DNA of 64,000 nucleotides from contig JACWDT010000001.1 in NCBI GenBank assembly GCA_014653985.1, positions 62,001-126,000 of the forward strand. The letters run 5' to 3'. The DNA is from Pelagibacterales bacterium SAG-MED22 (lineage in GTDB: Bacteria; Pseudomonadota; Alphaproteobacteria; Pelagibacterales; Pelagibacteraceae). This document shows positions 33,208 to 51,869 of this stretch, piece after piece. How positions within the stretch are numbered: the stretch's first letter is position 1; each line of letters starts with the position of its first letter. The position numbers and the translations under genes are program-made. The notes beneath the pieces were generated by a model. The model was given only the letters and a program-made list of their open reading frames with translations, was not told the origin of the DNA and did no database searches.

Positions 33208-33687
33208 CTATTTTTTTTCTTCCTTTGGAGCTTCTGCTGCTGGTGCTGCGTCTGCTTTAGGAGCTTCTTCCTTTGGAGCTTCTGCTGCTGGTGCTGCGTC
33301 TGCTTTAGGAGCTTCTTCCTTTGGAGCTTCTGCTGCTGGTGCTGCGTCTGCTTTAGGAGCTTCAGTTTTATCTTCCTCTTTTTTATTTCTTTCTTTTTTC
33401 GGAATAGCTTTATTGGGGTTATTACCATTTACAGGCATTGGCATTAATTCATTTTCTCCCAATATTCTCGCAACTCTAGTTGTTGGTTTAGCTCCTTGAC
33501 CGAGCCAATATTTAATTCTTTCAGCCTCAAGACCTACTCTTTCTTTTTTATCTTTGGGTAAAAGAGGATTAAAAAATCCTACCTTCTCAATAAATCTTCC
33601 ATCTCTTGCAAAACGGCTATCAGCTACAACGACTTTATATACTGGACGTTTTTTTGTTCCTCCTCTTGATAATCTTAGTTTTAACAT
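33208..33687 (-). CDS. rpsP: 30S ribosomal protein S16 with a tandem-repeat C-terminal tail
   Basis: Residues 1 to about 85 are S16 ([39 protein letters not shown]). A long tail follows to residue 159, beginning with a basic stretch ([11 protein letters not shown]) and then three copies of a 16-residue unit ([16 protein letters not shown]). A good ribosome binding site (GGAG) precedes the ATG. S16 helps the 30S 5' domain assemble. The tail is far beyond the usual 80-90 residues of the family. Confidence 0.96.
33221..33364 (-). repeat. Three 48-base tandem repeats coding the S16 tail
   Basis: Three direct copies of a 48-base unit lie end to end at 33221-33268, 33269-33316 and 33317-33364; they differ only in the last base of the third copy. 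Each codes 16 residues in frame in the rpsP tail. The near-perfect DNA identity, including silent positions, points to recent expansion or gene conversion by slippage rather than long-term selection on each copy. Confidence 0.95.
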
Positions 33688-35218: not shown

Positions 35219-36961
35219 ATGGATATCAAAGCGTTTAAAATGGATGGTTTAGGTAATGATTTTGTCATTATAGATAATAGGCAAAAAATTACTAATTTAA
35301 GCAAAGAGCAAATTATTAAAATTTGCGATAGAGAATTTATAGGTTGTGATCAGTTAATATTAATAACTAAAAATGATAGTTCTGATGCATCTCTAGAATT
35401 TTATAATTCTGATGGTGGAACTTCTGGAGCATGTGGAAATGGAACAAGATGCGTTGCAGATTTGTTATCTAAAGAAAACAATAAATCATTAGTTACTTTA
35501 ACTACACAATCTGGTGATTTAAAATCTGAGATATTGGGAGAAAAACTAGTCTCTACAGAAATTGGGAAAGGTAGAATAGAGTGGAATGAAATTCCACTTT
35601 CTGAAGAATTGGATACCAATAACCTTAATATAAAAATAACTGATCTAAATAATAATAATCATACAGGAGGTACAGCAGTAAATGTTGGAAATCCACATAT
35701 CATTTTTTTTGTTGATAATAATGAAAATTTTGAAATAAAAAAAATTGGACCAGAAATTGAAAACCATCCTTTATTTCCTGAAAAATGTAATGTTACTTTA
35801 GCAACAGTCGTTGATGAGGAATTAATTAAAGTTAAAGTTTGGGAAAGAGGAGCAGGTCTTACTAAGGCCTGTGGTACAGCTGCTTGCGCTACTGCTTTTG
35901 CTGCAATGAGAAATGGGCTTTCAGGTAATAAAGTTGATATCCAGTTTTCTACTGGGAAGTTATCAATATTTATTGATGAAAATAACAGTATTCACATGAA
36001 AGGACCCGTTTCCGATATTAAAGAAATTAATATAAAAAATTTAATGGGAATTTTTGATAAATTTAAATCTGGTTTTAAGAAAAGTGCGTCAGCATTTAGT
36101 TCAGGTTTAAAAAATATTGTCATAAAAAAAGAAATAGATGACAAAACATTAGATAAGATTGAAGATTATTTGATTCAATCAGATGTCGGTATTGCTGCTG
36201 CATTAGAAATTAGAGAAATTGTTTCCCAAACTAAAATTGATCCAAACAAACATACAGTAGATGAGATAAATATTATTTTAAAAAATTATATAGTTGGATT
36301 GATGAAACCTTTAGAAAATTTTGAATTTTTTAAAAAAAAACAAAAACTTAACGTAATACTTATTTCCGGTGTTAATGGAGTTGGCAAAACAACTACAATA
36401 GGAAAAATTAGTAAAATATTTAAAGGTAATGGAAATAAAGTTATGCTTGCTGCATCAGATACATTTAGAGCAGCAGCAATTGAACAATTAGAAAATTGGT
36501 CAAAAAAAGTAGATGTTTCAATTACTAAATCATCACAAGGATCTGATCCAGCCTCAGTGGCATATAAAGCAATAGAAGAGGCGTTAAATAATCAATTCGA
36601 TCAAGTTTTGATAGACACTGCTGGAAGATTACAAAACAAAAAAAATTTAATGGAAGAATACAAAAAAATTGCAAACGTAACAAAAAAAATAGATTCTGAA
36701 GCTCCCCATGATGTAATTTTAGTTTTAGACGCTACCTCTGGACAAAATGTGATTAATCAAGTTGAAGAATTTAATAAAATTATTCCTATCACAGGGCTAA
36801 TAATGACAAAATTAGATGGAACAGCCAAAGGTGGCATTCTTCTAGCAGTTGCTAAAAAATATAAGCTACCAATTATTGCTCTTGGTTTAGGGGAAAAAGA
36901 AGATGATCTACAGATTTTTGAAGCAGAAAAGTTTGCAGAAGCTTTTACACAAATTAATTAA
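35219..36961 (+). CDS. Fused diaminopimelate epimerase and SRP receptor (DapF-FtsY)
   Basis: One 580-codon frame covers two normally separate proteins. Residues 1-275 are DapF, which epimerises LL- to meso-diaminopimelate, with both catalytic cysteines: Cys72 in GACGNGTRC and Cys218 in KACGTAACA. From Met276 (MGIFDKFKSGFKKS) on it is FtsY, the SRP receptor GTPase: P-loop GVNGVGKTTT at 384-393, DTFRAAAIEQL, DTAGR at 466-470, and TKLDGTAKGG. The join is at an A6 tract (36034-36039): with one A fewer, dapF would stop at a TAA overlapping the ftsY ATG (TAATG). So this is either a true fusion, an assembly indel, or frameshifting at the tract. It is divergent from ffh. Confidence 0.9.
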   Translation: MDIKAFKMDGLGNDFVIIDNRQKITNLSKEQIIKICDREFIGCDQLILITKNDSSDASLEFYNSDGGTSGACGNGTRCVADLLSKENNKSLVTLTTQSGDLKSEILGEKLVSTEIGKGRIEWNEIPLSEELDTNNLNIKITDLNNNNHTGGTAVNVGNPHIIFFVDNNENFEIKKIGPEIENHPLFPEKCNVTLATVVDEELIKVKVWERGAGLTKACGTAACATAFAAMRNGLSGNKVDIQFSTGKLSIFIDENNSIHMKGPVSDIKEINIKNLMGIFDKFKSGFKKSASAFSSGLKNIVIKKEIDDKTLDKIEDYLIQSDVGIAAALEIREIVSQTKIDPNKHTVDEINIILKNYIVGLMKPLENFEFFKKKQKLNVILISGVNGVGKTTTIGKISKIFKGNGNKVMLAASDTFRAAAIEQLENWSKKVDVSITKSSQGSDPASVAYKAIEEALNNQFDQVLIDTAGRLQNKKNLMEEYKKIANVTKKIDSEAPHDVILVLDATSGQNVINQVEEFNKIIPITGLIMTKLDGTAKGGILLAVAKKYKLPIIALGLGEKEDDLQIFEAEKFAEAFTQIN

Positions 36962-40800: not shown

Positions 40801-42162
40801 TTATTGCGCAAATAAAGTTTCTGGTAACCATAAAGCTATTGCTGGAAACATATACATTAAAAACATTGCAAAAATAACAATTCCTAAGAATGGCATTATT
40901 CCTCTGAATATTTCCATCAGCTCTACATTTGTTTTTTGAACTCCTTTTAGATAGTAGGCGGACATGGCCATGGGGGGAGTTAAAAAGGATGTTTGCAAAT
41001 TTAAAGCTATTAACATTGCAAAGAAATAGGGATTAACTCCAAAAATTTCTAGTAATGGTAAAAATATAGGGACAAAAATAATTAAAATCTCAGTCCATTC
41101 TAATGGCCATCCTAAAAGAAAAATAATTATTTGAGTAATTACTAAAAATTGCCATGTTGAAATATTTATAGATGTGAAAAAATGCTCAAAAACTTCATGA
41201 CCACCTAAATAAGAAAATACAGATGAAAAAGTCCAAGAACCAATAAATAACCACATGATCATTGCGGTTGTTTTTGCAGTTAAAAATACAGACTCTTTAA
41301 AGTTTTGCCATTTAAGAGTTTTATAAAACCAAGATAAAATCAGTGCCCCAAAAGCTCCAGCTGCAGCAGCCTCGGCCGGTGTAGCTATTCCAGCTAAAAT
41401 AGTTCCAAGCACTAACATAATTAATCCAAATAAAGGTACAAAAGAAACCAACACTTCTTTTAAAATTTCAGCTCTTGGAGGTATATCTTCTGCTGGTGGT
41501 CTTGGAGCTATAGATGGGTTCAGCCAAGCTCTAAAAACTGCATATCCAATATATAAACTTGCTAATAACAATCCTGGGAAAATAGCAGCTGCAAAAAGTC
41601 TTAAAGGAGATAATTGTGCAATTACTGAATAAACAATTAACATTATGCTTGGAGGAATTAAAATACCTAAGCATCCACCTGAACAAATAATCCCTGATGC
41701 AAATTTTTTATCATATCCTGCTTTAACCATTGCGGGCCAAGCAAGTAATCCCATCAAAGTTACTACTGCACCTATAATTCCTGTTGCTGTTGAAAATAAT
41801 GTACATGTAATTAATGCAGCTACTGCCATCGATGCGGGCAATCTATGTGCCGCTAATCTGATTGCAAAAAATAATTTTGCTACTATCCCAGCTCTCTCAA
41901 CTAAGTAACCCATAAATAAAAATAAAGGTACAGCGGTGAGGACATTGTTATCCATTACTGTATAAGTATTTTGAACAAAGAGTTGGAATATTCGGTTATC
42001 AAAAATATGCTCCATCATGGTCGCATCGTAATAAGCGTAATAACCAAAACCAATTCCCATTGCCATTAAAGTAAATGCAATTGGAAAACCTAAAAGAACT
42101 GCAAAAAGAAATATCCCCATCATTAAAATGGCAACTTCTGGATTTGTTAAACTAAACAACAT
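40801..42162 (-). CDS. dctM: TRAP transporter large permease DctM
   Basis: The ion-coupled permease subunit (453 residues, about 12 membrane helices) of a tripartite ATP-independent periplasmic transporter. Typical segments: IIPPSIMLIVYSVI, GIATPAEAAAAGAFGAL and the C-terminal LNLQTSFLTPPMAMSAYYL. Its start overlaps the dctQ end by 11 bases. Together with DctQ and DctP it imports a solute, usually an organic acid, using a sodium gradient. Confidence 0.95.
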   Translation of the reverse strand: MLFSLTNPEVAILMMGIFLFAVLLGFPIAFTLMAMGIGFGYYAYYDATMMEHIFDNRIFQLFVQNTYTVMDNNVLTAVPLFLFMGYLVERAGIVAKLFFAIRLAAHRLPASMAVAALITCTLFSTATGIIGAVVTLMGLLAWPAMVKAGYDKKFASGIICSGGCLGILIPPSIMLIVYSVIAQLSPLRLFAAAIFPGLLLASLYIGYAVFRAWLNPSIAPRPPAEDIPPRAEILKEVLVSFVPLFGLIMLVLGTILAGIATPAEAAAAGAFGALILSWFYKTLKWQNFKESVFLTAKTTAMIMWLFIGSWTFSSVFSYLGGHEVFEHFFTSINISTWQFLVITQIIIFLLGWPLEWTEILIIFVPIFLPLLEIFGVNPYFFAMLIALNLQTSFLTPPMAMSAYYLKGVQKTNVELMEIFRGIMPFLGIVIFAMFLMYMFPAIALWLPETLFAQ

Positions 42163-42736
42163 CTTTTTGTTCCTCAGCTTTTGATTGTCTCATTAGCACC
42201 TGCTCTGTTTCTTCTGCAACAACCATTCTTGATGGCCAGTGATCGGTTCTTATACAAATTACTGATCTGAAAACTTCACTAATCCCCTGAATAATTAAAA
42301 GAACACCAGCGCAAGGTATCATTGACTTTACCATGTAAATTTGTATTTGAGCTGGACTACTCCAGCTAGTTTCTTTAATTTTCCATGCCAATGCTGCGTA
42401 TTCATAGCCATAAAAAGCTAAAGCAATTACTCCAGGAAAAAAGAATATAAAGTATAGAACTAAATCTATCCAAGCCTGAGTTCTTTCTTTAAATAATCTG
42501 TAAATTACATCTCCTCTTACATGAGCTTCTGTAGCTAAACAATAAGCTCCTGACATCATTAGTATTGCACCATACATCTGCATACTAAAATCAAAATTCC
42601 ATAAGGTTGGCTTATTAAAAGCATAAGCCATGATGACCTCGTAGACAGTACCCCCCATTAAAATTACGATACACCATGAAAAAGCTTTACCCATTGAGGT
42701 GCTTAATGTATCGGCAAATTTAATGAATGATTCCAT
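42152..42736 (-). CDS. dctQ: TRAP transporter small permease DctQ
   Basis: A four-helix membrane subunit of about 194 residues that pairs with DctM. I use the ATG at 42736 (MESFIKFADTLS); a TTG three codons upstream is the alternative. The YEVIMAYAFNKPTLW and ATEAHVRGDVIYRLF segments are typical of DctQ. It is separated from dctP by a strong intrinsic terminator hairpin, so it is probably expressed by read-through at a lower level. Confidence 0.92.
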   Translation of the reverse strand: MESFIKFADTLSTSMGKAFSWCIVILMGGTVYEVIMAYAFNKPTLWNFDFSMQMYGAILMMSGAYCLATEAHVRGDVIYRLFKERTQAWIDLVLYFIFFFPGVIALAFYGYEYAALAWKIKETSWSSPAQIQIYMVKSMIPCAGVLLIIQGISEVFRSVICIRTDHWPSRMVVAEETEQVLMRQSKAEEQKDVV

Positions 42737-42762
42737 CGTCAACAATTATATTAAATTTAACT

Positions 42763-42790
42763 AAAAAAAAAGGGGGTTTTTTAAACCCCC
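42763..42790 (-). terminator. Intrinsic terminator between dctP and dctQ
   Basis: On the minus strand GGGGGTTT (42790-42783) pairs with AAACCCCC (42779-42772) around a three-base loop and is followed by nine Ts. It lies 26 bases after dctP and 27 bases before dctQ. The shape is that of a rho-independent terminator and would favour a high ratio of binding protein to permease transcripts. Confidence 0.85.
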
Positions 42791-42815
42791 TCTTTTTAAA
42801 TTTGATAAAAGTTAA

Positions 42816-43973
42816 TTAAATTTTAACTTTTGCAATTGGACCAAACTCATTTTCATAAGCTAATTTGTAGTTCGGTTGATTCATCAACAGATACTTCATT
42901 GTTCTCTTAGCGTATGCTTTTTGTGAGTCTACTACTTTCTTAAAGAAAGCGTCCTTACCAGAAAACTCAGCAACGATTTTATCCCAACCTTTTAATTGCT
43001 CGGCTAAGATAGCATCAGATGTTTGGTAAACATTTACCTTATGCTCGTTCATCAATTTAGCTAAGTCAGCAGAATATCTAACTAAAGCTTTGAAGTAGTT
43101 ATCTGAGTTTGCAGCATAAGCAGCATTCTTCAAGATAGCTTGATGTTTAGGCGCAAGGCTGTTTAGTCTCTTAGTGTTCATAGGAATTTCAAACATTTCC
43201 TGAGATTGGTGGAAACTTCCTAAGTGATAATGTTTAGAGACGTCTTGCATTCCAAACTGTGAGTCTGATGTTGGGTTGTTAAACTCTGCAGCATCAATCA
43301 AACCAGTTTTCATAGCTGGCTGGATCTCACCACCTGGTAATTGTCTTACGACCATTCCCATAGCAGTTAAAACGTTAGTCGCAAGACCAACTGTTCTATA
43401 CTTCATACCTTTAACATCAGATACTTTTGTTACGTTCTTTTTGAACCAACCAAATGGTTGAGCTGGCATAGGCATATGGAAGAAACCAGTGTAATTAAAA
43501 CCTACACTTTTTACTGCTTCCTCGTATAATGCTCTTCCTCCACCATACTCCATCCATCCCATAACTTCTTGAGATGACATTCCGTATGAAGGACCAGTTC
43601 CAAAAAGTGAAGCTGCAGCATTTTTTCCGTACCAGTATGCAGTCACCCAGTGACCCATATCTACCACTCCTGAACTAACTGCTTGTCCAATTTCTGAAGT
43701 TTTTACAACGGCACCAACAGGCTGAAGATCAATTTTTAATTCTCCTCCAGACATGTCACTAACCATTTTCGCATAGTCTCCTGCCATTTCAAAAAAGATG
43801 TTTGCGCCTGAAGGCCAAGCTGCTTGCATCTTTAGAGTTAATGGAGCACCAAAAGCTACATTAGGCATAGCCACAGCTGTCGCTGCTGCTGCACCAGTCG
43901 CTGCTGCTGCTTTGAAGAACTTACGTCTTGAAGGTGTTTTAGCACCTTTTAATGATTTTTTATTTTTAATCAT
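42816..43973 (-). CDS. dctP: TRAP transporter substrate-binding protein DctP (Tat signal)
   Basis: The periplasmic binding protein (385 residues) of the TRAP system. A twin-arginine signal is visible (SRRKFFKAAAATGAAA), as in the TakP-like branch that binds 2-oxo acids. The conserved ligand region GMKYRTVGLATNVL then LPGGEIQPAMKTGLIDAAEF is present, with the Arg that usually salt-bridges a carboxylate. The ligand is therefore likely an organic acid; which one is not clear. A strong ribosome binding site (AGAGGAGA) precedes the ATG, and a terminator hairpin follows the gene. Confidence 0.93.
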   Translation of the reverse strand: MIKNKKSLKGAKTPSRRKFFKAAAATGAAAATAVAMPNVAFGAPLTLKMQAAWPSGANIFFEMAGDYAKMVSDMSGGELKIDLQPVGAVVKTSEIGQAVSSGVVDMGHWVTAYWYGKNAAASLFGTGPSYGMSSQEVMGWMEYGGGRALYEEAVKSVGFNYTGFFHMPMPAQPFGWFKKNVTKVSDVKGMKYRTVGLATNVLTAMGMVVRQLPGGEIQPAMKTGLIDAAEFNNPTSDSQFGMQDVSKHYHLGSFHQSQEMFEIPMNTKRLNSLAPKHQAILKNAAYAANSDNYFKALVRYSADLAKLMNEHKVNVYQTSDAILAEQLKGWDKIVAEFSGKDAFFKKVVDSQKAYAKRTMKYLLMNQPNYKLAYENEFGPIAKVKI

Positions 43974-44097
43974 TTTGTTCTCTCCTCTTGTTAATTAACG
44001 GTCGTAATTAAACATAGAATTAGAATAGAGTCTTTCTAAAAACGCGCGCGGATTGACACTTAACAAAAAATATACAATCTATAGTAGAATTGTTAAT

Positions 44098-45171
44098 TTA
44101 AATAAGAATTTCGTTCTCATAAACGCAGCATTTATCAGCTGGTATGTGTAATTTTACATTACTAGAAGGAACCTCTGTTTCTCTGTTAATTTTTGATTTT
44201 ATTGTAAGTTCACCCATTTTAGCGGTTAATAACTTATAATTTCCAAGGTCTTCTACCTTATCAACTTCAACAGATAGCAAATTATCTTTCTGATCCTCAG
44301 CTAAATTAATAAACTCAGATCTAATACCTAACTTAATTTTTTTATCTTTAAGTTTTGACAAATTAGTGTTTGTTTTAATCAAAGTTCCATTGATTTTAAC
44401 ACAATCATTTGATGATGCTTCTGTTTCGAATAAATTCATTGCCGGTGAACCAATAAAGTATCCAACAAATGTAGTGTTTGGTCTCTCAAATAATTCCTTA
44501 GGAGTTCCTGCTTGCACAACCTCGCCGTTACTCATAACAATAATATTATCGGCAAAAGTCATCGCCTCGTTTTGATCATGCGTGACGTAAACTAGGGTAG
44601 TTTTAAATTCTTCATTAATCTCTTTTAGCTTTCTTCTTAGTCTAAATTTCAAATCAGGATCAATAACTGTTAATGGTTCGTCCATTAAAACTGCAGCAAC
44701 ATCTTCTCTTACTAAACCTCGTCCAAGTGAAATTAATTGTTTTTGATCTGCAGTAAGTTTTCTAGCAGGAAATTTAAGAAAAGATTGTAAATTTAAAGTT
44801 TCTGCAACTGAATTGACTCTCTCATTAATTTTTTCTTTTTCAAAATCTCTACATAGTAAAGGAAATGCTAAATTTTCAAAAACTGTCATGGTATTATAAA
44901 TAACTGGAAACTGAAAAACTTGAGCAATATTTCTATCCTCAGTTTTAAGATCTGTAACATCTTTATCATCAAATAAAATACTTCCTGCAGAGGGTCTTAC
45001 TAGTCCAGATACAATATTTAACATTGTAGTTTTTCCACATCCAGATGGTCCCAATATTGCATATCTTTTTCCGTTTTCCCAAGTCATTGAAAAAGGATTT
45101 AGTGCATAAGTAGGCTCTGTATCTTTTGGGTTATACGTATGGGAAATATTATTTAAATCTATTTTAGACAT
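44098..45171 (-). CDS. ABC transporter ATP-binding protein (CUT1 type) with a degenerate signature motif
   Basis: A MalK/UgpC-like ATPase of 357 residues. The start at 45171 (MSKIDLNNISHTY) is fixed by a GGAGG five bases upstream. Walker A is GPSGCGKTT, Walker B LMDEPLTVID, and the H-loop His is in YVTHDQNEAMTF. The ABC signature, normally LSGGQ, reads LTADQKQ, so one of the two ATP sites of the dimer is probably altered. The C-terminal third is a TOBE-like regulatory domain. It pairs with the ATPase encoded just upstream, overlapping it by eight bases. Confidence 0.92.
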   Translation of the reverse strand: MSKIDLNNISHTYNPKDTEPTYALNPFSMTWENGKRYAILGPSGCGKTTMLNIVSGLVRPSAGSILFDDKDVTDLKTEDRNIAQVFQFPVIYNTMTVFENLAFPLLCRDFEKEKINERVNSVAETLNLQSFLKFPARKLTADQKQLISLGRGLVREDVAAVLMDEPLTVIDPDLKFRLRRKLKEINEEFKTTLVYVTHDQNEAMTFADNIIVMSNGEVVQAGTPKELFERPNTTFVGYFIGSPAMNLFETEASSNDCVKINGTLIKTNTNLSKLKDKKIKLGIRSEFINLAEDQKDNLLSVEVDKVEDLGNYKLLTAKMGELTIKSKINRETEVPSSNVKLHIPADKCCVYENEILI

Positions 45172-46243
45172 AAGAACCTCCAAAAGGTGAAGAAGCTAAA
45201 ACTCCATTTTCATTGAATGCATAGACTTTATTTGAATTGAAATTAATTTTTAACTTGTCATGAATATTAAAATTCAAAACTTCTTCTATGGATGTAATAA
45301 TTCTAGCATTTCCTCTCTTAAGATGAAGTAATGTTTCTGAGCCACTAATTTCTGCGAGTTCAACTTCAAATTCAAAACCACTATCACTTAATTCTATATC
45401 AGATGCTCTAATACCTAAATTAAAGTTTTTCTCTTTTAAATTAGATAAATGACTAGGTAAGTCTACTTTAATTTCTTCAAATATAATTTTATTTTCTTGA
45501 ATAATCGCTTTTAGAATATTCATAGGTGGATCGTTAGAAATTTCAGCGACTTTTAGGGTTTTTGGATTTTCAAAGATTTCTTTAGCAGGTCCAACTTGTA
45601 ATACCTTTCCCTCATCAAGAACAATAACCTCACCATTTAGCTCCATTGCTTCTCTTGGATCTGTAGTAGAAAATACAACAATACTGTCTTCAGATAATCC
45701 TTGAGAAAATATATTCTTAAACTCTTCTCTTAATTGCTCTCTAAGTTTGTAATCCAGATTAACTAAAGGCTCATCCAATAATAAAATCTTTGCATTTTTT
45801 ACTAAAGATCTTGCTAGAGAAACTCTCTGTTGCTGACCGCCGGATAACTCCTGGATTTTTCTATTTTCATAACCTTCTAATCCCACAGATTTAAGGGACT
45901 TTGTAACTTCATCGGCTATCACCTGATCATCTATTTTTCTTTGTTTAAGGGGGAAAGCAACGTTCTCAAAGACATTTAAATGAGGGTAATTTATAAATTG
46001 CTGATAAACCATTGCAATATTTCTCTCCCAAACTGGAACTTTTAAAAAATCCTTGTCTTCGAACTGCATTGCACCTGTGTCAGGTGTTAATAATCCAGCA
46101 ATAGTTTTTAGCAACGTTGTTTTGCCTGACAACGTTCTTCCAAGAATTGTATAAATATTTCCTTTCTTAAAATCAAAAGACACTTCATCGAGATGGAACT
46201 GTTCATCTGGTTTATAGGATAAGTTTTCAGCAACTAAATTCAT
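45164..46243 (-). CDS. ABC transporter ATP-binding protein (CUT1 type)
   Basis: The second MalK-like ATPase of the system, 359 residues from the ATG at 46243 (MNLVAENLSYKPD), which overlaps the permease stop as TAATG; a longer frame would extend into the permease gene. It has a full ABC signature (LSGGQQQRVSLARSL) and Walker B (LLLDEPLVNLD). Walker A is GRTLSGKTT, an uncommon spelling with Leu-Ser before the Gly-Lys. The pair of unlike ATPases recalls the GlpS/GlpT ATPases of rhizobial glycerol-3-phosphate transporters. Confidence 0.92.
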   Translation of the reverse strand: MNLVAENLSYKPDEQFHLDEVSFDFKKGNIYTILGRTLSGKTTLLKTIAGLLTPDTGAMQFEDKDFLKVPVWERNIAMVYQQFINYPHLNVFENVAFPLKQRKIDDQVIADEVTKSLKSVGLEGYENRKIQELSGGQQQRVSLARSLVKNAKILLLDEPLVNLDYKLREQLREEFKNIFSQGLSEDSIVVFSTTDPREAMELNGEVIVLDEGKVLQVGPAKEIFENPKTLKVAEISNDPPMNILKAIIQENKIIFEEIKVDLPSHLSNLKEKNFNLGIRASDIELSDSGFEFEVELAEISGSETLLHLKRGNARIITSIEEVLNFNIHDKLKINFNSNKVYAFNENGVLASSPFGGSYV

Positions 46244-47091
46244 TATTTTATTGCTCCTGACAAGTTTCCTTTTGACAAATATCTCTCTACAACAAAAGCA
46301 ACTATGATGAGTGGTGCAACTGAAATCAAAGCTGAAGCAGATAAACTCCACCAAGGTGTAATTGATGAATTTAAGGCAACAATTTTAACTGGCAAAAGTT
46401 GCACTTCAGTAAAGGTTAAAATAAATGCAAAGAAAAAATCAATCCAGCCAAATATTATACAAAACATACCAGCAACTATTAATCCTGGTATTGAATTTGG
46501 AAGTACAACTTTAAAAAAAGCTTGGTAAGGATTACATCCGTCAATTAAAGCGGTTTCATCAATCTCTCTTGGAACTTTGTTGAAAAAATCAACCATTATC
46601 CAAACTGCAATTGGCATTAACAAGACAATATAAACGACTATTAGTCCGATTAAACTATCCAACAAATTAATTGCGCCTAAGAATAAAAAGAAAGGAATTG
46701 ATAAAACAATTGGTGGCATAATTCTTTGAGAAATAAAAAAGAAGGTAATGTCATTATTTTTTACAAAACCTGCTTTAAATGTGAACCTTGAAAGAGCATA
46801 AGCAGACAAAGTTCCTAATATTATACTAATCAAACTAGCTGTGCAGGTTACAAATAAACTATTGAAATAAGGTTCAATTATATCAACACCTCCATTTGCA
46901 GGAGACTTAATCAGCACTCTCCAACCCTCTAACTTTGGTTCAAAGTCTACCCATGGAATATATGTTGCTCCACCATTCACTGAATTAAAATCCTTAAATG
47001 AGGTTGTAAGAGCCCAAAGAAAAGGAGCTACGACAAAAACTGCCCAGAAGGTTATAAAAAAGTATTTTAAGATTTTATATAGTTTTCCCAT
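46243..47091 (-). CDS. ABC transporter permease (MalG-like)
   Basis: A 282-residue inner-membrane permease with about six helices. The ATPase-docking EAA loop is clear (DETALIDGCNPYQAFFKVVL, near residue 185). The N-terminal FVVAPFLWALTTSFKD is typical of MalG-type CUT1 permeases. It follows the MalF-like permease by two bases. Confidence 0.94.
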   Translation of the reverse strand: MGKLYKILKYFFITFWAVFVVAPFLWALTTSFKDFNSVNGGATYIPWVDFEPKLEGWRVLIKSPANGGVDIIEPYFNSLFVTCTASLISIILGTLSAYALSRFTFKAGFVKNNDITFFFISQRIMPPIVLSIPFFLFLGAINLLDSLIGLIVVYIVLLMPIAVWIMVDFFNKVPREIDETALIDGCNPYQAFFKVVLPNSIPGLIVAGMFCIIFGWIDFFFAFILTFTEVQLLPVKIVALNSSITPWWSLSASALISVAPLIIVAFVVERYLSKGNLSGAIK

Positions 47092-47093
47092 AT

Positions 47094-47954
47094 CTAGTCT
47101 TTAAGCATTAATTTAGTTAGTACTTTTGCTATCACAGTTAAACTTACAATCATAATTATCAAATATGTAAATGACATTGATGCTGCATAACCCATTTGAA
47201 ACTCTCGAAGTCCTTTAATAAAAATATAAAAACTTGAAGTTTCAGTTGAAGTTCCTGGTCCACCTGATGTTAAAACATAAACAGTATCCATAATTTTTGA
47301 AGCTTCAATCAATCTAATTATTATTGCTCCAATAGAAATTGGTGCCATTAATGGGAAAGTTACATATAAAAATTTTCTAACTGGGCTTGCACCATCAATA
47401 GCAGCAGCTAAAAATGGTTCTTTTGGCAACGACAAAAGACCCGCTAATAGCAATAAGAACATGAAAGGTGTCCATTGCCAGACCTCAACAATTATAACTG
47501 TAAATTTTGCGAGAACTGGATCTGTTAACCACTTGGGTGACATTCCAAAATTTGATAGAATGTCATTAACTGGACCAAGAGATTCATGAAAAAAAGTTCT
47601 CCAAATTACTGTCATGATAACTGGTGTTGTCATCATTGGTATTAAAAATAAAACTCTAAAAAATCTTTGAAATTTAATATCTTTCCAAACCATATGAGCT
47701 AGCGCAAAACCAATCACATATTGTAAAACTACTGTTGTAACAGACAAAAAACTTAATCTAAAAAATGATTCCCAAAATCGAGGATCGTCAGTAAATAATC
47801 TTATATAATTTTCAAGACCAATAAAATTTAAACCATTATAACTATTCCACCCTGATAAACTTAAACGAATTACAAAAATTATTGGGAAAATTAAAATACC
47901 TATAAGAACAAATAAGCCCGGAAATAAAAAAACATATTTTTGCTTAAAGTTCAT
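47094..47954 (-). CDS. ABC transporter permease (MalF-like)
   Basis: A 286-residue permease with about six membrane helices (MNFKQKYVFLFPGLFVLIGI at the start). The docking loop lies in AAIDGASPVRKFLYVTFPLM near residue 190, and YVLTSGGPGTSTETSSFYIF is a common MalF/UgpA-type segment. It is the first permease after the binding protein, separated by a spacer with a strong hairpin. Confidence 0.94.
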   Translation of the reverse strand: MNFKQKYVFLFPGLFVLIGILIFPIIFVIRLSLSGWNSYNGLNFIGLENYIRLFTDDPRFWESFFRLSFLSVTTVVLQYVIGFALAHMVWKDIKFQRFFRVLFLIPMMTTPVIMTVIWRTFFHESLGPVNDILSNFGMSPKWLTDPVLAKFTVIIVEVWQWTPFMFLLLLAGLLSLPKEPFLAAAIDGASPVRKFLYVTFPLMAPISIGAIIIRLIEASKIMDTVYVLTSGGPGTSTETSSFYIFIKGLREFQMGYAASMSFTYLIIMIVSLTVIAKVLTKLMLKD

Positions 47955-47976
47955 TTGAGTATTTTGATTTGATTAC

Positions 47977-48005
47977 TATGTGGCCACTATAAAAGTGGCC
48001 ACATA
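47977..48005 (-). promoter_or_regulatory. Perfect 12-bp hairpin between binding-protein and permease genes
   Basis: TATGTGGCCACT (47977-47988) and its exact complement (47994-48005) flank a five-base loop in the 65-base spacer. No T run follows on the transcribed strand, so it is not a classical terminator. A likely role is to protect the 3' end of the upstream binding-protein mRNA after processing, as REP-type hairpins do between malE and malF. Confidence 0.8.
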
Positions 48006-48019
48006 AAATTTAAGTTATC

Positions 48020-49558
48020 TTATAACTTGTTGTCTTCCATTTTAACACCAACAGCGTAGTCTTCTTGAACGTTCTTCTTTCCTACTCTGTTTACAATTGC
48101 TTCCCACTCTTTAGCAACTTCATCAAGTGCTTCCTGTGGAGACAATTGACCTGCAAGAGCTTTAGAAGTTCCAGTTGCAACTGCACTAGTAAACTCAAAT
48201 ACACCTCTAACTCTTAATGGGAAAACTCTATTTTTACTTTTTTCCATATCTTTAAGTGTCTTTGTGTAACTGTTAGCAATGTCAGCATCCCAACCCATAG
48301 TTTTTATATAAAGTTGTGGATCGAAATCTGAGTTTTTAAAAGGGTTAACACCAAAATTTCCAATAGCTAAGTCAGCTTGGTGGTTTGCTCCATTAGAAAA
48401 GAAACATAGATAGTCAAATGCCATCTCTTGTTCTTTACTTTTTTTAGCTACACCAACTGCCCAACCCCATACAATGTATGGTGCTTGGTTATATTGATTT
48501 TCCCATTTACCTGAAACTCTATTCCAAACTTTATCTGCACCTGGAAGAGGAGCTGTACCTACTTTATTTTTAATAGGGCTATCGTCTTGCATTGCTGCAA
48601 TAAACGCGTCATCCCATGAAAAACTAAATAGAGTTTGACCACCACCAAATGATCCAATTTCATCACCTAGTCCAAAGTTAATTCCTCCTGGAGGAACATA
48701 CTTAGTAGCCTCTACCCAGTCACCTAAAGCTTCAACAAATCCCGGATTGTTAATGTTTGGTTTCATAGTTTCTAAATCAAAAAAGAAACCACCTGGAGTT
48801 CTTGGATTTTTAGCATACGCTACTGATCTACTGAAAAAAGCTGCGAACATTAAGTCGTCTTTTTTCATTACTTCAGCTGAACCGTATTCTTTTTCTCCAT
48901 CTCCGTCCCAGTCCCAACCATTAAAGTATTTAGCCATTTCGCCGTACTCTTTCCAAGTTGTAGGAACTTTTAACTCTTTACCAGTATCTGCTTTATATTT
49001 TTTTTGATACTCAGGATTATCTATTACATCTTTTCTATATTTTAGATAATGTCTGTCACCATCCACTGGATATTGATACATAGTTCCATCCCAAGAAGAG
49101 ACTCCTACGTGAGATTTAGTTACATCTTTCATCTCAGTTGAATTCATGTACTTTTTAGGAACTGGTGCTAAATATTGTCTCCAGTCATTAATAAAGTTAG
49201 AAAAACCAAATACGATATCGTATGGAGCTTGACCAGCTTTAAAAGGAACCATAGCTTTTGCGTACAAATCACCCGCTGGTGTATGCGTTACATCAACTTT
49301 TGCTCCTGTTAGCTTAGCAAACTGTTCAGCATGCAAAGCGGTTGGCTGTCCAATTACTGGAACAGCATGTGTGTTTATTTTAAGAGTTTTTCCTTTATAA
49401 TTTTTCTTAGACATTTCTTCATAAGAACAATCACCAGGAATATCCCCTGTTGCTTTGATATGTGGAAATTGATCTCCCCACTTGTCAGCATACGCAACTG
49501 GGCTTAATATCAACATTGCTGAAACTAAACCTGTTACGAAAGTTTTTATTATTTTCAT
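48020..49558 (-). CDS. ABC transporter extracellular solute-binding protein (family 1)
   Basis: A 512-residue periplasmic binding protein with a signal peptide (MKIIKTFVTGLVSAMLILSP, cleavage probably after VAYA). The mature part has the bilobed family 1 pattern seen in sugar and polyol systems (LTGAKVDVTHTPAGDLYAKA; YDIVFGFSNFINDW; the WGWAVGVAKKS segment). Size and associated unlike ATPases resemble systems for polyols, glycerol-3-phosphate or sugars; the ligand is not determined. It lies between the alcohol dehydrogenase and the permeases. Confidence 0.9.
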   Translation of the reverse strand: MKIIKTFVTGLVSAMLILSPVAYADKWGDQFPHIKATGDIPGDCSYEEMSKKNYKGKTLKINTHAVPVIGQPTALHAEQFAKLTGAKVDVTHTPAGDLYAKAMVPFKAGQAPYDIVFGFSNFINDWRQYLAPVPKKYMNSTEMKDVTKSHVGVSSWDGTMYQYPVDGDRHYLKYRKDVIDNPEYQKKYKADTGKELKVPTTWKEYGEMAKYFNGWDWDGDGEKEYGSAEVMKKDDLMFAAFFSRSVAYAKNPRTPGGFFFDLETMKPNINNPGFVEALGDWVEATKYVPPGGINFGLGDEIGSFGGGQTLFSFSWDDAFIAAMQDDSPIKNKVGTAPLPGADKVWNRVSGKWENQYNQAPYIVWGWAVGVAKKSKEQEMAFDYLCFFSNGANHQADLAIGNFGVNPFKNSDFDPQLYIKTMGWDADIANSYTKTLKDMEKSKNRVFPLRVRGVFEFTSAVATGTSKALAGQLSPQEALDEVAKEWEAIVNRVGKKNVQEDYAVGVKMEDNKL

Positions 49559-49576
49559 TATTTCCTCTCTTTTTTT

Positions 49577-50638
49577 TTATGGAACTAAAACAGCTCGACC
49601 CTTAACCTTACCCTCGTTAAGATCATGAAGTGCTTTATTAGCATCGTCTAGTTTGTATTCTGCCATGGATAGCTTAACTAATCCTTTGTCAGCTAGTTCC
49701 ATAAGTTCATACAACTCAGACCACGTTCCCACTAAATTTCCAATTATATTTTTCTCAGCTATAATTACATCCACTGCAAGGATTTTTATTTCCTCACCGT
49801 AACCAACAATATAATAATAACCACCACCTGATGTCATGTTCAAACCCATTGACGTAGAACCTTTTTCACCTACAAAATCTATTACAGCTTCAGCACCTTT
49901 ACCTTTCGTTAACTCCATGACTTGCTCTACTTCATTGCCATCAATCAACACTCCCTTGTCTCCACCAAGTGGCATAGCATGATCAAGTGCAGTTTTTGAT
50001 TTTTCAACTATGATTATATTTGCTGCACACATTGCTTTTAAACATTGGATCGCAATATGCCCAAGACCACCTGCCCCTATAATTACACAGTTCTGTCCTG
50101 GTAAAAGATGTCTTGTAGCTTTTTTTACAACTCTGTATGCAGTCAAACCTGCATCTGAAAAAGGAGCAACATCTTTAGGTGTTAAAACAGTTGGTAACTT
50201 AATTAAGTTTCTAACACTAGTTTTTAAAAGCTCAGCATATCCACCTTCTTTTATATTTAGTCCTGGAAATGCACCTGCTTCGGCGTGCATGTCATTTCCT
50301 CTTCTACAGTCTAAACAAGTTCCACCAGTCCCTGATATTAAAGGATGTAAAATGACTGAATCCCCTTTTTTAAAATTAGTAACGTCTTTTCCTACTTCCT
50401 CAACCCATCCAGCATTCTCATGTCCCATGACACAAGGAAGAAGCTTATCATCTGGATCTTGAATATGTTTCCATACGCCTTCAATTATATGTAAGTCTGT
50501 TCTGCAAACACCTGCTGCACCTATTTTGACTATAACATCTGTGGATTTTTCTAATTTTGGATCAGGCATTTCTTGCTCTGTTACCCAAATTTTTTCTTTC
50601 ATTTCTGGGTCGTATTTATGTAAAACTTGAGCTTTCAT
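49577..50638 (-). CDS. Zinc-dependent alcohol dehydrogenase (MDR family)
   Basis: A medium-chain dehydrogenase of 353 residues. The ATG at 50638 is chosen because a GGGAGAG ribosome binding site precedes it; a longer frame has no support. Catalytic zinc ligands: Cys in GVCRTDLH, His in GHENAGWVEEVG, and probably Asp in FSDAGLTAYR, as in some bacterial ADHs. NAD motif GAGGLGHIAIQ with Glu after the second strand (IIIVEKS) favours NAD. The structural zinc site keeps only two cysteines (TCLDCRRG). As first gene of the ABC operon it may oxidise the imported alcohol or polyol. Confidence 0.9.
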   Translation of the reverse strand: MKAQVLHKYDPEMKEKIWVTEQEMPDPKLEKSTDVIVKIGAAGVCRTDLHIIEGVWKHIQDPDDKLLPCVMGHENAGWVEEVGKDVTNFKKGDSVILHPLISGTGGTCLDCRRGNDMHAEAGAFPGLNIKEGGYAELLKTSVRNLIKLPTVLTPKDVAPFSDAGLTAYRVVKKATRHLLPGQNCVIIGAGGLGHIAIQCLKAMCAANIIIVEKSKTALDHAMPLGGDKGVLIDGNEVEQVMELTKGKGAEAVIDFVGEKGSTSMGLNMTSGGGYYYIVGYGEEIKILAVDVIIAEKNIIGNLVGTWSELYELMELADKGLVKLSMAEYKLDDANKALHDLNEGKVKGRAVLVP

Positions 50639-50678
50639 TAATTCTCTCCCTTTAATTTTTTCAAACCATATTAAAAAT

Positions 50679-50684
50679 AGTATA
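50679..50684 (-). promoter_or_regulatory. Candidate -10 element of the ADH/ABC operon
   Basis: TATACT on the minus strand lies about 40 bases before the dehydrogenase ATG. No good -35 is found at 16-18 bases; that position falls inside the inverted repeat at 50701-50714, which would fit a promoter that depends on an activator. Confidence 0.4.
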
Positions 50685-50700
50685 TGCGAGGGAGTCAATG

Positions 50701-50714
50701 ACACTTTTAAGTGT
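50701..50714. promoter_or_regulatory. Inverted repeat, candidate operator for the ADH/ABC operon
   Basis: ACACTT-TT-AAGTGT, six-base arms around two bases, sits in the 145-base divergent region over the expected -35 of the ADH promoter. It is a plausible binding site for the divergently coded Fis-type HTH regulator. Confidence 0.5.
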
Positions 50715-50732
50715 TCAATAAGTTAACAAATA

Positions 50733-50745
50733 CAACCTTAGGTTG
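50733..50745. promoter_or_regulatory. Inverted repeat, candidate operator near the regulator gene
   Basis: CAACC-TTA-GGTTG, five-base arms, lies 19 bases upstream of the TATAAT at 50764, near the expected -35 of the regulator gene. Its sequence differs from the repeat at 50701, so the two sites may bind different proteins or only one may be used. Confidence 0.4.
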
Positions 50746-50763
50746 GTTGTTCTATTGTTTATT

Positions 50764-50769
50764 TATAAT
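50764..50769 (+). promoter_or_regulatory. Candidate -10 element of the GAF/HTH regulator gene
   Basis: A consensus TATAAT ends 14 bases before the ATG at 50784. Transcription would start only a few bases before the start codon, giving a nearly leaderless message. No clear -35 hexamer is visible. Confidence 0.4.
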
Positions 50770-50783
50770 ATTCTCATCAATAT

Positions 50784-51869
50784 ATGGATTTGATACCTCA
50801 AAACCAAGAGATTAAAAATATCCTTGAAAAAAGAGGAATGATCTCCCAAAAAATCACCAATGAAATTTCTGAAAGTTGGACAAGATGTGTGAACAATGGA
50901 CTAGACCCTTTTAAAGATCCAAAGCAAAGTATTATTTCTTCAATAGAACTTAAAAAGATCAAAGAAAAAAACGAGAGTATAAGAAAATTAATTATACCAG
51001 AATTAGAACTTTTATATTCCCAAATTGCTGGAACTAATTTCATGGTAGCATACTCAGATGAAAGTGGATTAGTACTTGATACCATTTACGATAAAACTTG
51101 TCTTCAAACAGATGTTGGCAAAACAGTTGTGCCTGGATCCATTTGGGCTGAAAATGTTTGCGGCACTAATGGTTTAGGATTGTCAGTTGAATTAAAAAAA
51201 CCAACCATTGTTTCTGGTAAAGAGCATTTCTTTATTGCACACGAAAATATTTCATGTTTTGCAAGCCCAATTATTAACTACGATGGTAAAACAATTGGTA
51301 TCATTGATGCTTCTACTGACTCTATGTCAAGAGAGCAACATACTTTGGCGCTAGTAAAACTTGCAACCAGGAGTATTGAAACAAAATTATTTATTAGAAA
51401 ATTTAATAATGAATTAATTTTGTCTTTCCATCCAAGATTAGAATACTTATCAACAACAAGTGTTGGATTATTGGCAATCAATGGTGATGGTGTAATCGTT
51501 GGAGCAAATCAAAATGCAAAAATTATGCTTAATGGTTTAGTAGATTTAAAAAATGAAAACTTTAATAAGATCTTCACAAATTCTTTTTCCTCTATTGCTT
51601 CAGAATTATTAAACGATAAAACTTTAAAGATAACTGATCACATGGGTTCATCTGTTTTTGTAACAAAAAGCCAAAACTTTAAAGAAAACAAACTTATAGC
51701 TAATAATAGTTCAAAAAAAATTTACGCTTGTAAAAAATGTAATGACACAAAAATTCGAAGAGAAAGATGTAAACTAATTAGATCAACTTATTTAGAATCA
51801 AAGAATATAATGGCTGTCTCTAGAAAATTAGGAGTTTCGAGAACAACTGTTTATAAACATCTTAATTAA
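50784..51869 (+). CDS. GAF-domain regulator with Fis-type HTH (AcoR-like, no AAA+ domain)
   Basis: A 361-residue regulator resembling both ends of AcoR-type activators. The N-terminal part has the SWTRCVNNGLDP motif and a GAF-like sensor (about 60-190) with ENVCGTNGLGLSVEL and GKEHFFIAHENISC. A second sensor-like region follows, then a Cys pair (CKKC), then a Fis-type helix-turn-helix at the end (MAVSRKLGVSRTTVYKHL). The central AAA+ sigma-54 ATPase domain of AcoR is missing. It is divergent from the ADH/ABC operon, which it probably controls; the effector is unknown but may be the imported solute or its aldehyde. Confidence 0.88.
   Translation: MDLIPQNQEIKNILEKRGMISQKITNEISESWTRCVNNGLDPFKDPKQSIISSIELKKIKEKNESIRKLIIPELELLYSQIAGTNFMVAYSDESGLVLDTIYDKTCLQTDVGKTVVPGSIWAENVCGTNGLGLSVELKKPTIVSGKEHFFIAHENISCFASPIINYDGKTIGIIDASTDSMSREQHTLALVKLATRSIETKLFIRKFNNELILSFHPRLEYLSTTSVGLLAINGDGVIVGANQNAKIMLNGLVDLKNENFNKIFTNSFSSIASELLNDKTLKITDHMGSSVFVTKSQNFKENKLIANNSSKKIYACKKCNDTKIRRERCKLIRSTYLESKNIMAVSRKLGVSRTTVYKHLN

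Follow-up and report, generated by a model that had tools for sequence, protein, structure and literature searches.

An open reading frame that appears to fuse diaminopimelate epimerase (DapF) with the signal recognition particle (SRP) receptor FtsY in this genome is, judged by comparison with related sequences, probably the product of an erroneous homopolymer indel in the assembled sequence. On this reading, dapF and ftsY would be two separate SAR11 (Pelagibacterales) genes overlapping by one base as TAATG, and a surplus A just before the junction, arising from amplification, sequencing or assembly, would shift the dapF stop out of frame and so run the pair together into a single frame. The underlying feature would then be an ordinary overlapping gene pair and the fused protein probably nonexistent. 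We consider the indel most likely an error because none of the relatives listed has six As at this position and because a matching one-A slip occurs in the essential pheT gene.

The apparent fused frame, seen in this assembly only, occupies positions 35219–36961 (+ strand) of the window, the 64,000-nucleotide stretch of DNA analyzed here, and is stop-free for 580 codons. The NCBIfam model TIGR00652 (DapF) matched residues 6–268 with 223.8 bits (cut-off 114.65; model positions 4–264 of 270), and TIGR00064 (FtsY) matched residues 306–575 with 317.5 bits (cut-off 260.7; model positions 2–277 of 279), in agreement with the Pfam assignment of both parts. The original prediction of a complete DapF followed in the same frame by a complete FtsY was thus borne out by the open frame and both family models. 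Its further details, both DapF cysteines and a retained natural ftsY start, are likewise present in the translation, with the cysteine motifs SGACGNGTR and TKACGTAACA, whose cysteines we take to be the catalytic pair, and Met276 at 36044. The dapF portion (35219–36043, + strand) is whole, with its stop lying one base out of frame; in 14 relatives' loci dapF encodes 274 residues in 12 cases and 272 in two. The ftsY portion (36044–36961, + strand) encodes an SRP receptor GTPase of 305 residues, and its own ATG aligns with the start in the relatives. Upstream, the gap between ffh and dapF harbors an ffh sRNA motif (RF01793; 35073–35126, − strand; 54.4 bits against a gathering score of 35); no other Rfam hit in the window reaches its gathering score.

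The fused frame depends on a single base. The A run at 36034–36039 consists of exactly six As; with five, as had been proposed, the dapF TAA overlaps the ftsY ATG by one base, which is the arrangement found in close relatives. The same TAATG also recurs elsewhere in the window as claimed: of 52 pairs of neighboring ORFs on one strand, five have it at the upstream stop, and in three of these five the downstream ORF is listed as starting at its ATG.

To place the junction in context, we collected relatives' loci, 29 from 150 genomes and 79 from among the best 80 of a contig scan of named genomes, many of whose names are of the AG-/AH- type that presumably denotes single-cell plates, with some of these titles bearing the label MAG. 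In none of the 108 listed loci whose junction could be read, which comprise 104 distinct junction sequences, are dapF and ftsY fused, down to about 50% identity. As scored by script, TAATG with its one-base overlap is present in 93 of the 108, stop and ATG lie side by side (offset 0) in 11, and two show an offset of +6. Direct reading yielded TAATG with five As for L093 and TAATG for L110 (AG-390-L03), where dapF is broken further upstream. All 13 of the closest among the loci listed (L032–L041, L056, L087 and L093) carry five As, 12 of them with 93–97% identity to the window in both proteins and L093 with 95% in DapF. The original prediction had named a relatives' dapF ending at a TAA that overlaps the ftsY ATG as the observation that would turn the fusion into an artefact, and this is what the close relatives display; together with their five As it supports the indel-error reading offered there among others. 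Since TAATG is retained across the close relatives read, ribosomes just finishing dapF may go on to translate ftsY, and from this overlap ftsY translation would probably be coupled to dapF termination.

The uninterrupted 580-residue frame could in principle represent an established fusion gene in which, as one of the initial interpretations had it, the SRP receptor is tethered to a lysine/cell-wall enzyme. The relatives at 93–97% identity contradict this, the fused frame being absent from all those listed and confined to one assembly, and it is a single base away from the standard separate arrangement; a literature search found nothing combining diaminopimelate epimerase, FtsY and fusion. We give this explanation next to no chance. 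The genus-wide searches point the same way: the 20-mer spanning the junction with six As was found in one of the 399 genus genomes searched, namely this genome, and among the places listed by a protein search, which had matches in 324 of the 399, only one spans both proteins, again in this genome. As that list is sorted by E-value, any fused match should rank at its top. G180, whose ftsY was listed in an open frame of 585 codons and thus resembled an independent fusion, was rejected, as it displays a normal TAATG junction with many stops between the genes. A surplus T within a run of Ts breaks its dapF, and its sequence is identical to that of L110 across the 2000 bases compared.

For an estimate of the indel background, the window was aligned to 12 close relatives at 91–97% identity, six of them represented by longer stretches and six by shorter loci, such that all 64,000 positions were covered by at least three of these 12. 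Only one indel of non-triplet length sets the window apart from every relative covering the site, the A at 36034, with 12 of 12 relatives against it; the change was seen in one assembly only and lies within a homopolymer, as an assembly error would. Treating each larger relative in turn in the same way, and calling an indel uncompensated if the same genome has no other non-triplet indel within 60 bases, we found one uncompensated private coding indel in each of five of the six and none in the 26.7 kb covered of the sixth. Four of these sit no more than about 50 bases from an ORF end; the fifth is in the middle of a gene. This count provides a background only, in which error and natural change are not told apart, and the positions of the relatives' indels suggest that some probably arose naturally or lie beyond the real limits of the gene. 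Elsewhere in the alignment, indels common to G151, G153 and G156 cluster at about 42000–51000 of the window, suggesting a more diverged or exchanged stretch, and the ORF at 33208–33687 (− strand), presumably rpsP-like, ends in repeats of an alanine/glutamate/lysine-rich unit where several relatives differ by indels.

These data bear on the alternative that the six As are real, a recent change private to this cell or strain, with a DapF–FtsY fusion made instead of or beside the separate proteins and tolerated. A +1 insertion upstream of the ftsY ATG can leave dapF and ftsY both whole at only 14 of 824 positions, and the observed site is one of them, where a frameshift does least harm. Selection would tolerate the event there, and errors falling at random would seldom land on such a site; this counts against the error reading and for a natural change, as does the position of the relatives' private indels, mostly near ORF ends and in part probably natural. 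Furthermore, DapF and FtsY are each intact and show conservation apart from the join, both domains stay whole in the fusion, and E. coli FtsY itself bears an extra N-terminal domain; a literature search on the FtsY A domain found nothing. An error that joins two genes at such a site is, however, also the sort that a reader would single out. Against a private mutation, the absence of fused loci among the 108 relatives' loci suggests that such a fusion does not persist in the long term, and the indel of the same type in pheT on the same contig can hardly be real. On balance, we regard a private mutation as unlikely, albeit with some weight. The narrower claim that the extra A is real and that the fusion is actually made, perhaps along with separate DapF and FtsY through slippage at the A run and the ftsY ATG, has in our view a slim chance. 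If true, it would be a fusion caught within one strain, with an amino-acid/cell-wall enzyme riding on the SRP receptor, and a real extra A would show, as is seldom possible, a gene fusion just as it arises.

A second case on the same contig, in pheT, points to an assembly error. Contig C1 of the window's genome, 472 kb once joined, was compared at the protein level with 620 kb of G082, a complete relative consisting of a single 1.44-Mb contig, a comparison that detects ORFs of at least 100 residues and shifts of less than 30 bases and may miss events. Among the 435 C1 ORFs with a match, only dapF–ftsY joins two G082 frames, and among the 457 G082 ORFs with a match, four showed split matches, three of them before natural starts and the fourth being pheT. 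The three other signals, at about 97077–97136, 141765 and 458240 of C1, were accordingly rejected as broken genes, lying upstream of natural starts in over-extended ORFs; we take the genes to be ffh, a hemC-like and a monooxygenase-like gene, with starts and names resting in part on general knowledge.

The break in pheT, which we named as the phenylalanyl-tRNA synthetase beta subunit gene from its sequence and a Pfam family, lies outside the window and mid-gene, at about 271830 of C1 (G000:C1; about 5830 of L144), where the frame stops after 617 of about 802 residues. The run at the break has six As here and seven in all six close relatives read (G150, G151, G152, G154, G157 and G158). Of nine close relatives searched, four have a whole pheT frame (G150, G152, G157 and G158), three have partial frames ending at contig ends (G151, G153 and G154), G155 gave no match, and in G156 the gene appears as two overlapping pieces in different frames at about 2345–2361 of L212, a place different from the C1 break. 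A PF03483 search found one place in this genome, consistent with a single copy, and a cell lacking phenylalanyl-tRNA synthetase should not live. Because the enzyme is single-copy and essential, the missing A in pheT is most likely an assembly error, and homopolymer errors therefore very probably exist in contig C1. The same assembly thus carries, in an indispensable gene, an indel like that at the dapF–ftsY junction. Comparable breaks in two other assemblies, in dapF of AG-390-L03 and in pheT of G156, also speak for the error reading.

For three benchmark cultures, the marine single-cell GORG-Tropics workflow is reported to give 3.0 indels per 100 kb (PMC11247762), a rate that predicts roughly two in 64 kb and roughly 14 in C1, if indeed that workflow is this genome's. 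C1 yielded two, and two frame-changing events in about 430 kb of matched C1 ORFs are far below that benchmark rate, which speaks against the error reading to the extent that the workflow applies. The rate may be lower in this genome, or the method may miss some events.

The A run itself could also produce both forms: in a third proposal, transcriptional or translational slippage, programmed or useful, would yield the fusion as well as the separate proteins. The fused frame reads A-AAA-AAT at this point, presumably a heptamer of slippery type, and a shift either way would end DapF soon after. InDel bypass is reported in repeats of 3–8 bases under laboratory drift (PMC3812077). A programmed event would leave a conserved slippery run at the junction, and the run is not conserved: beyond the 13 closest loci listed with their five As, it is broken or missing in more distant relatives, for example ATAGAAATTTAATG or AAACTATAATG. 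Runs of at least six A or T are moreover commonplace, with 354 in the window alone, 138 of which have at least seven. Slippage by E. coli RNA polymerase is reported to require no fewer than seven Ts, or a still longer run of As (PMC6260861), so that six As fall short, and transcription deletions in E. coli and Buchnera are reported to be seldom tied to homopolymers (PMC5574713). With the fusion in one assembly only, a run that is not conserved and a length below that reported, the slippage proposal is not supported, and we assign it a minute probability. Taken jointly, a useful fusion and programmed slippage are very unlikely.

If the surplus A is an error, as we favor, the case has a wider bearing. 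Where SAR11 genomes are so AT-rich, gaining or losing a single base within a run of As or Ts is enough to make an overlapping gene pair look fused, or an essential gene look like a pseudogene, and fusions called from single assemblies need comparison with close relatives.

Compared with the DapF (TIGR00652) and FtsY (TIGR00064) families, both parts of the frame lie above the curated cut-offs and the join is the sole difference that we found. Set against the SAR11 dapF–ftsY pair that overlaps as TAATG, the genes, their order, the ATG and the flanking sequence are identical in kind, whereas the window has one A more before the junction and the dapF stop out of frame. Another close parallel is the dapF of AG-390-L03, broken mid-gene at about 3485 of its locus, at a T run that is nine long there and eight long in the near relative L103. 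In both genomes one extra homopolymer base shifts the dapF frame; in AG-390-L03 it falls in a T run in the middle of the gene and breaks dapF, whereas in the window it falls in an A run at the extreme 3' end of dapF, so that two complete frames become one.
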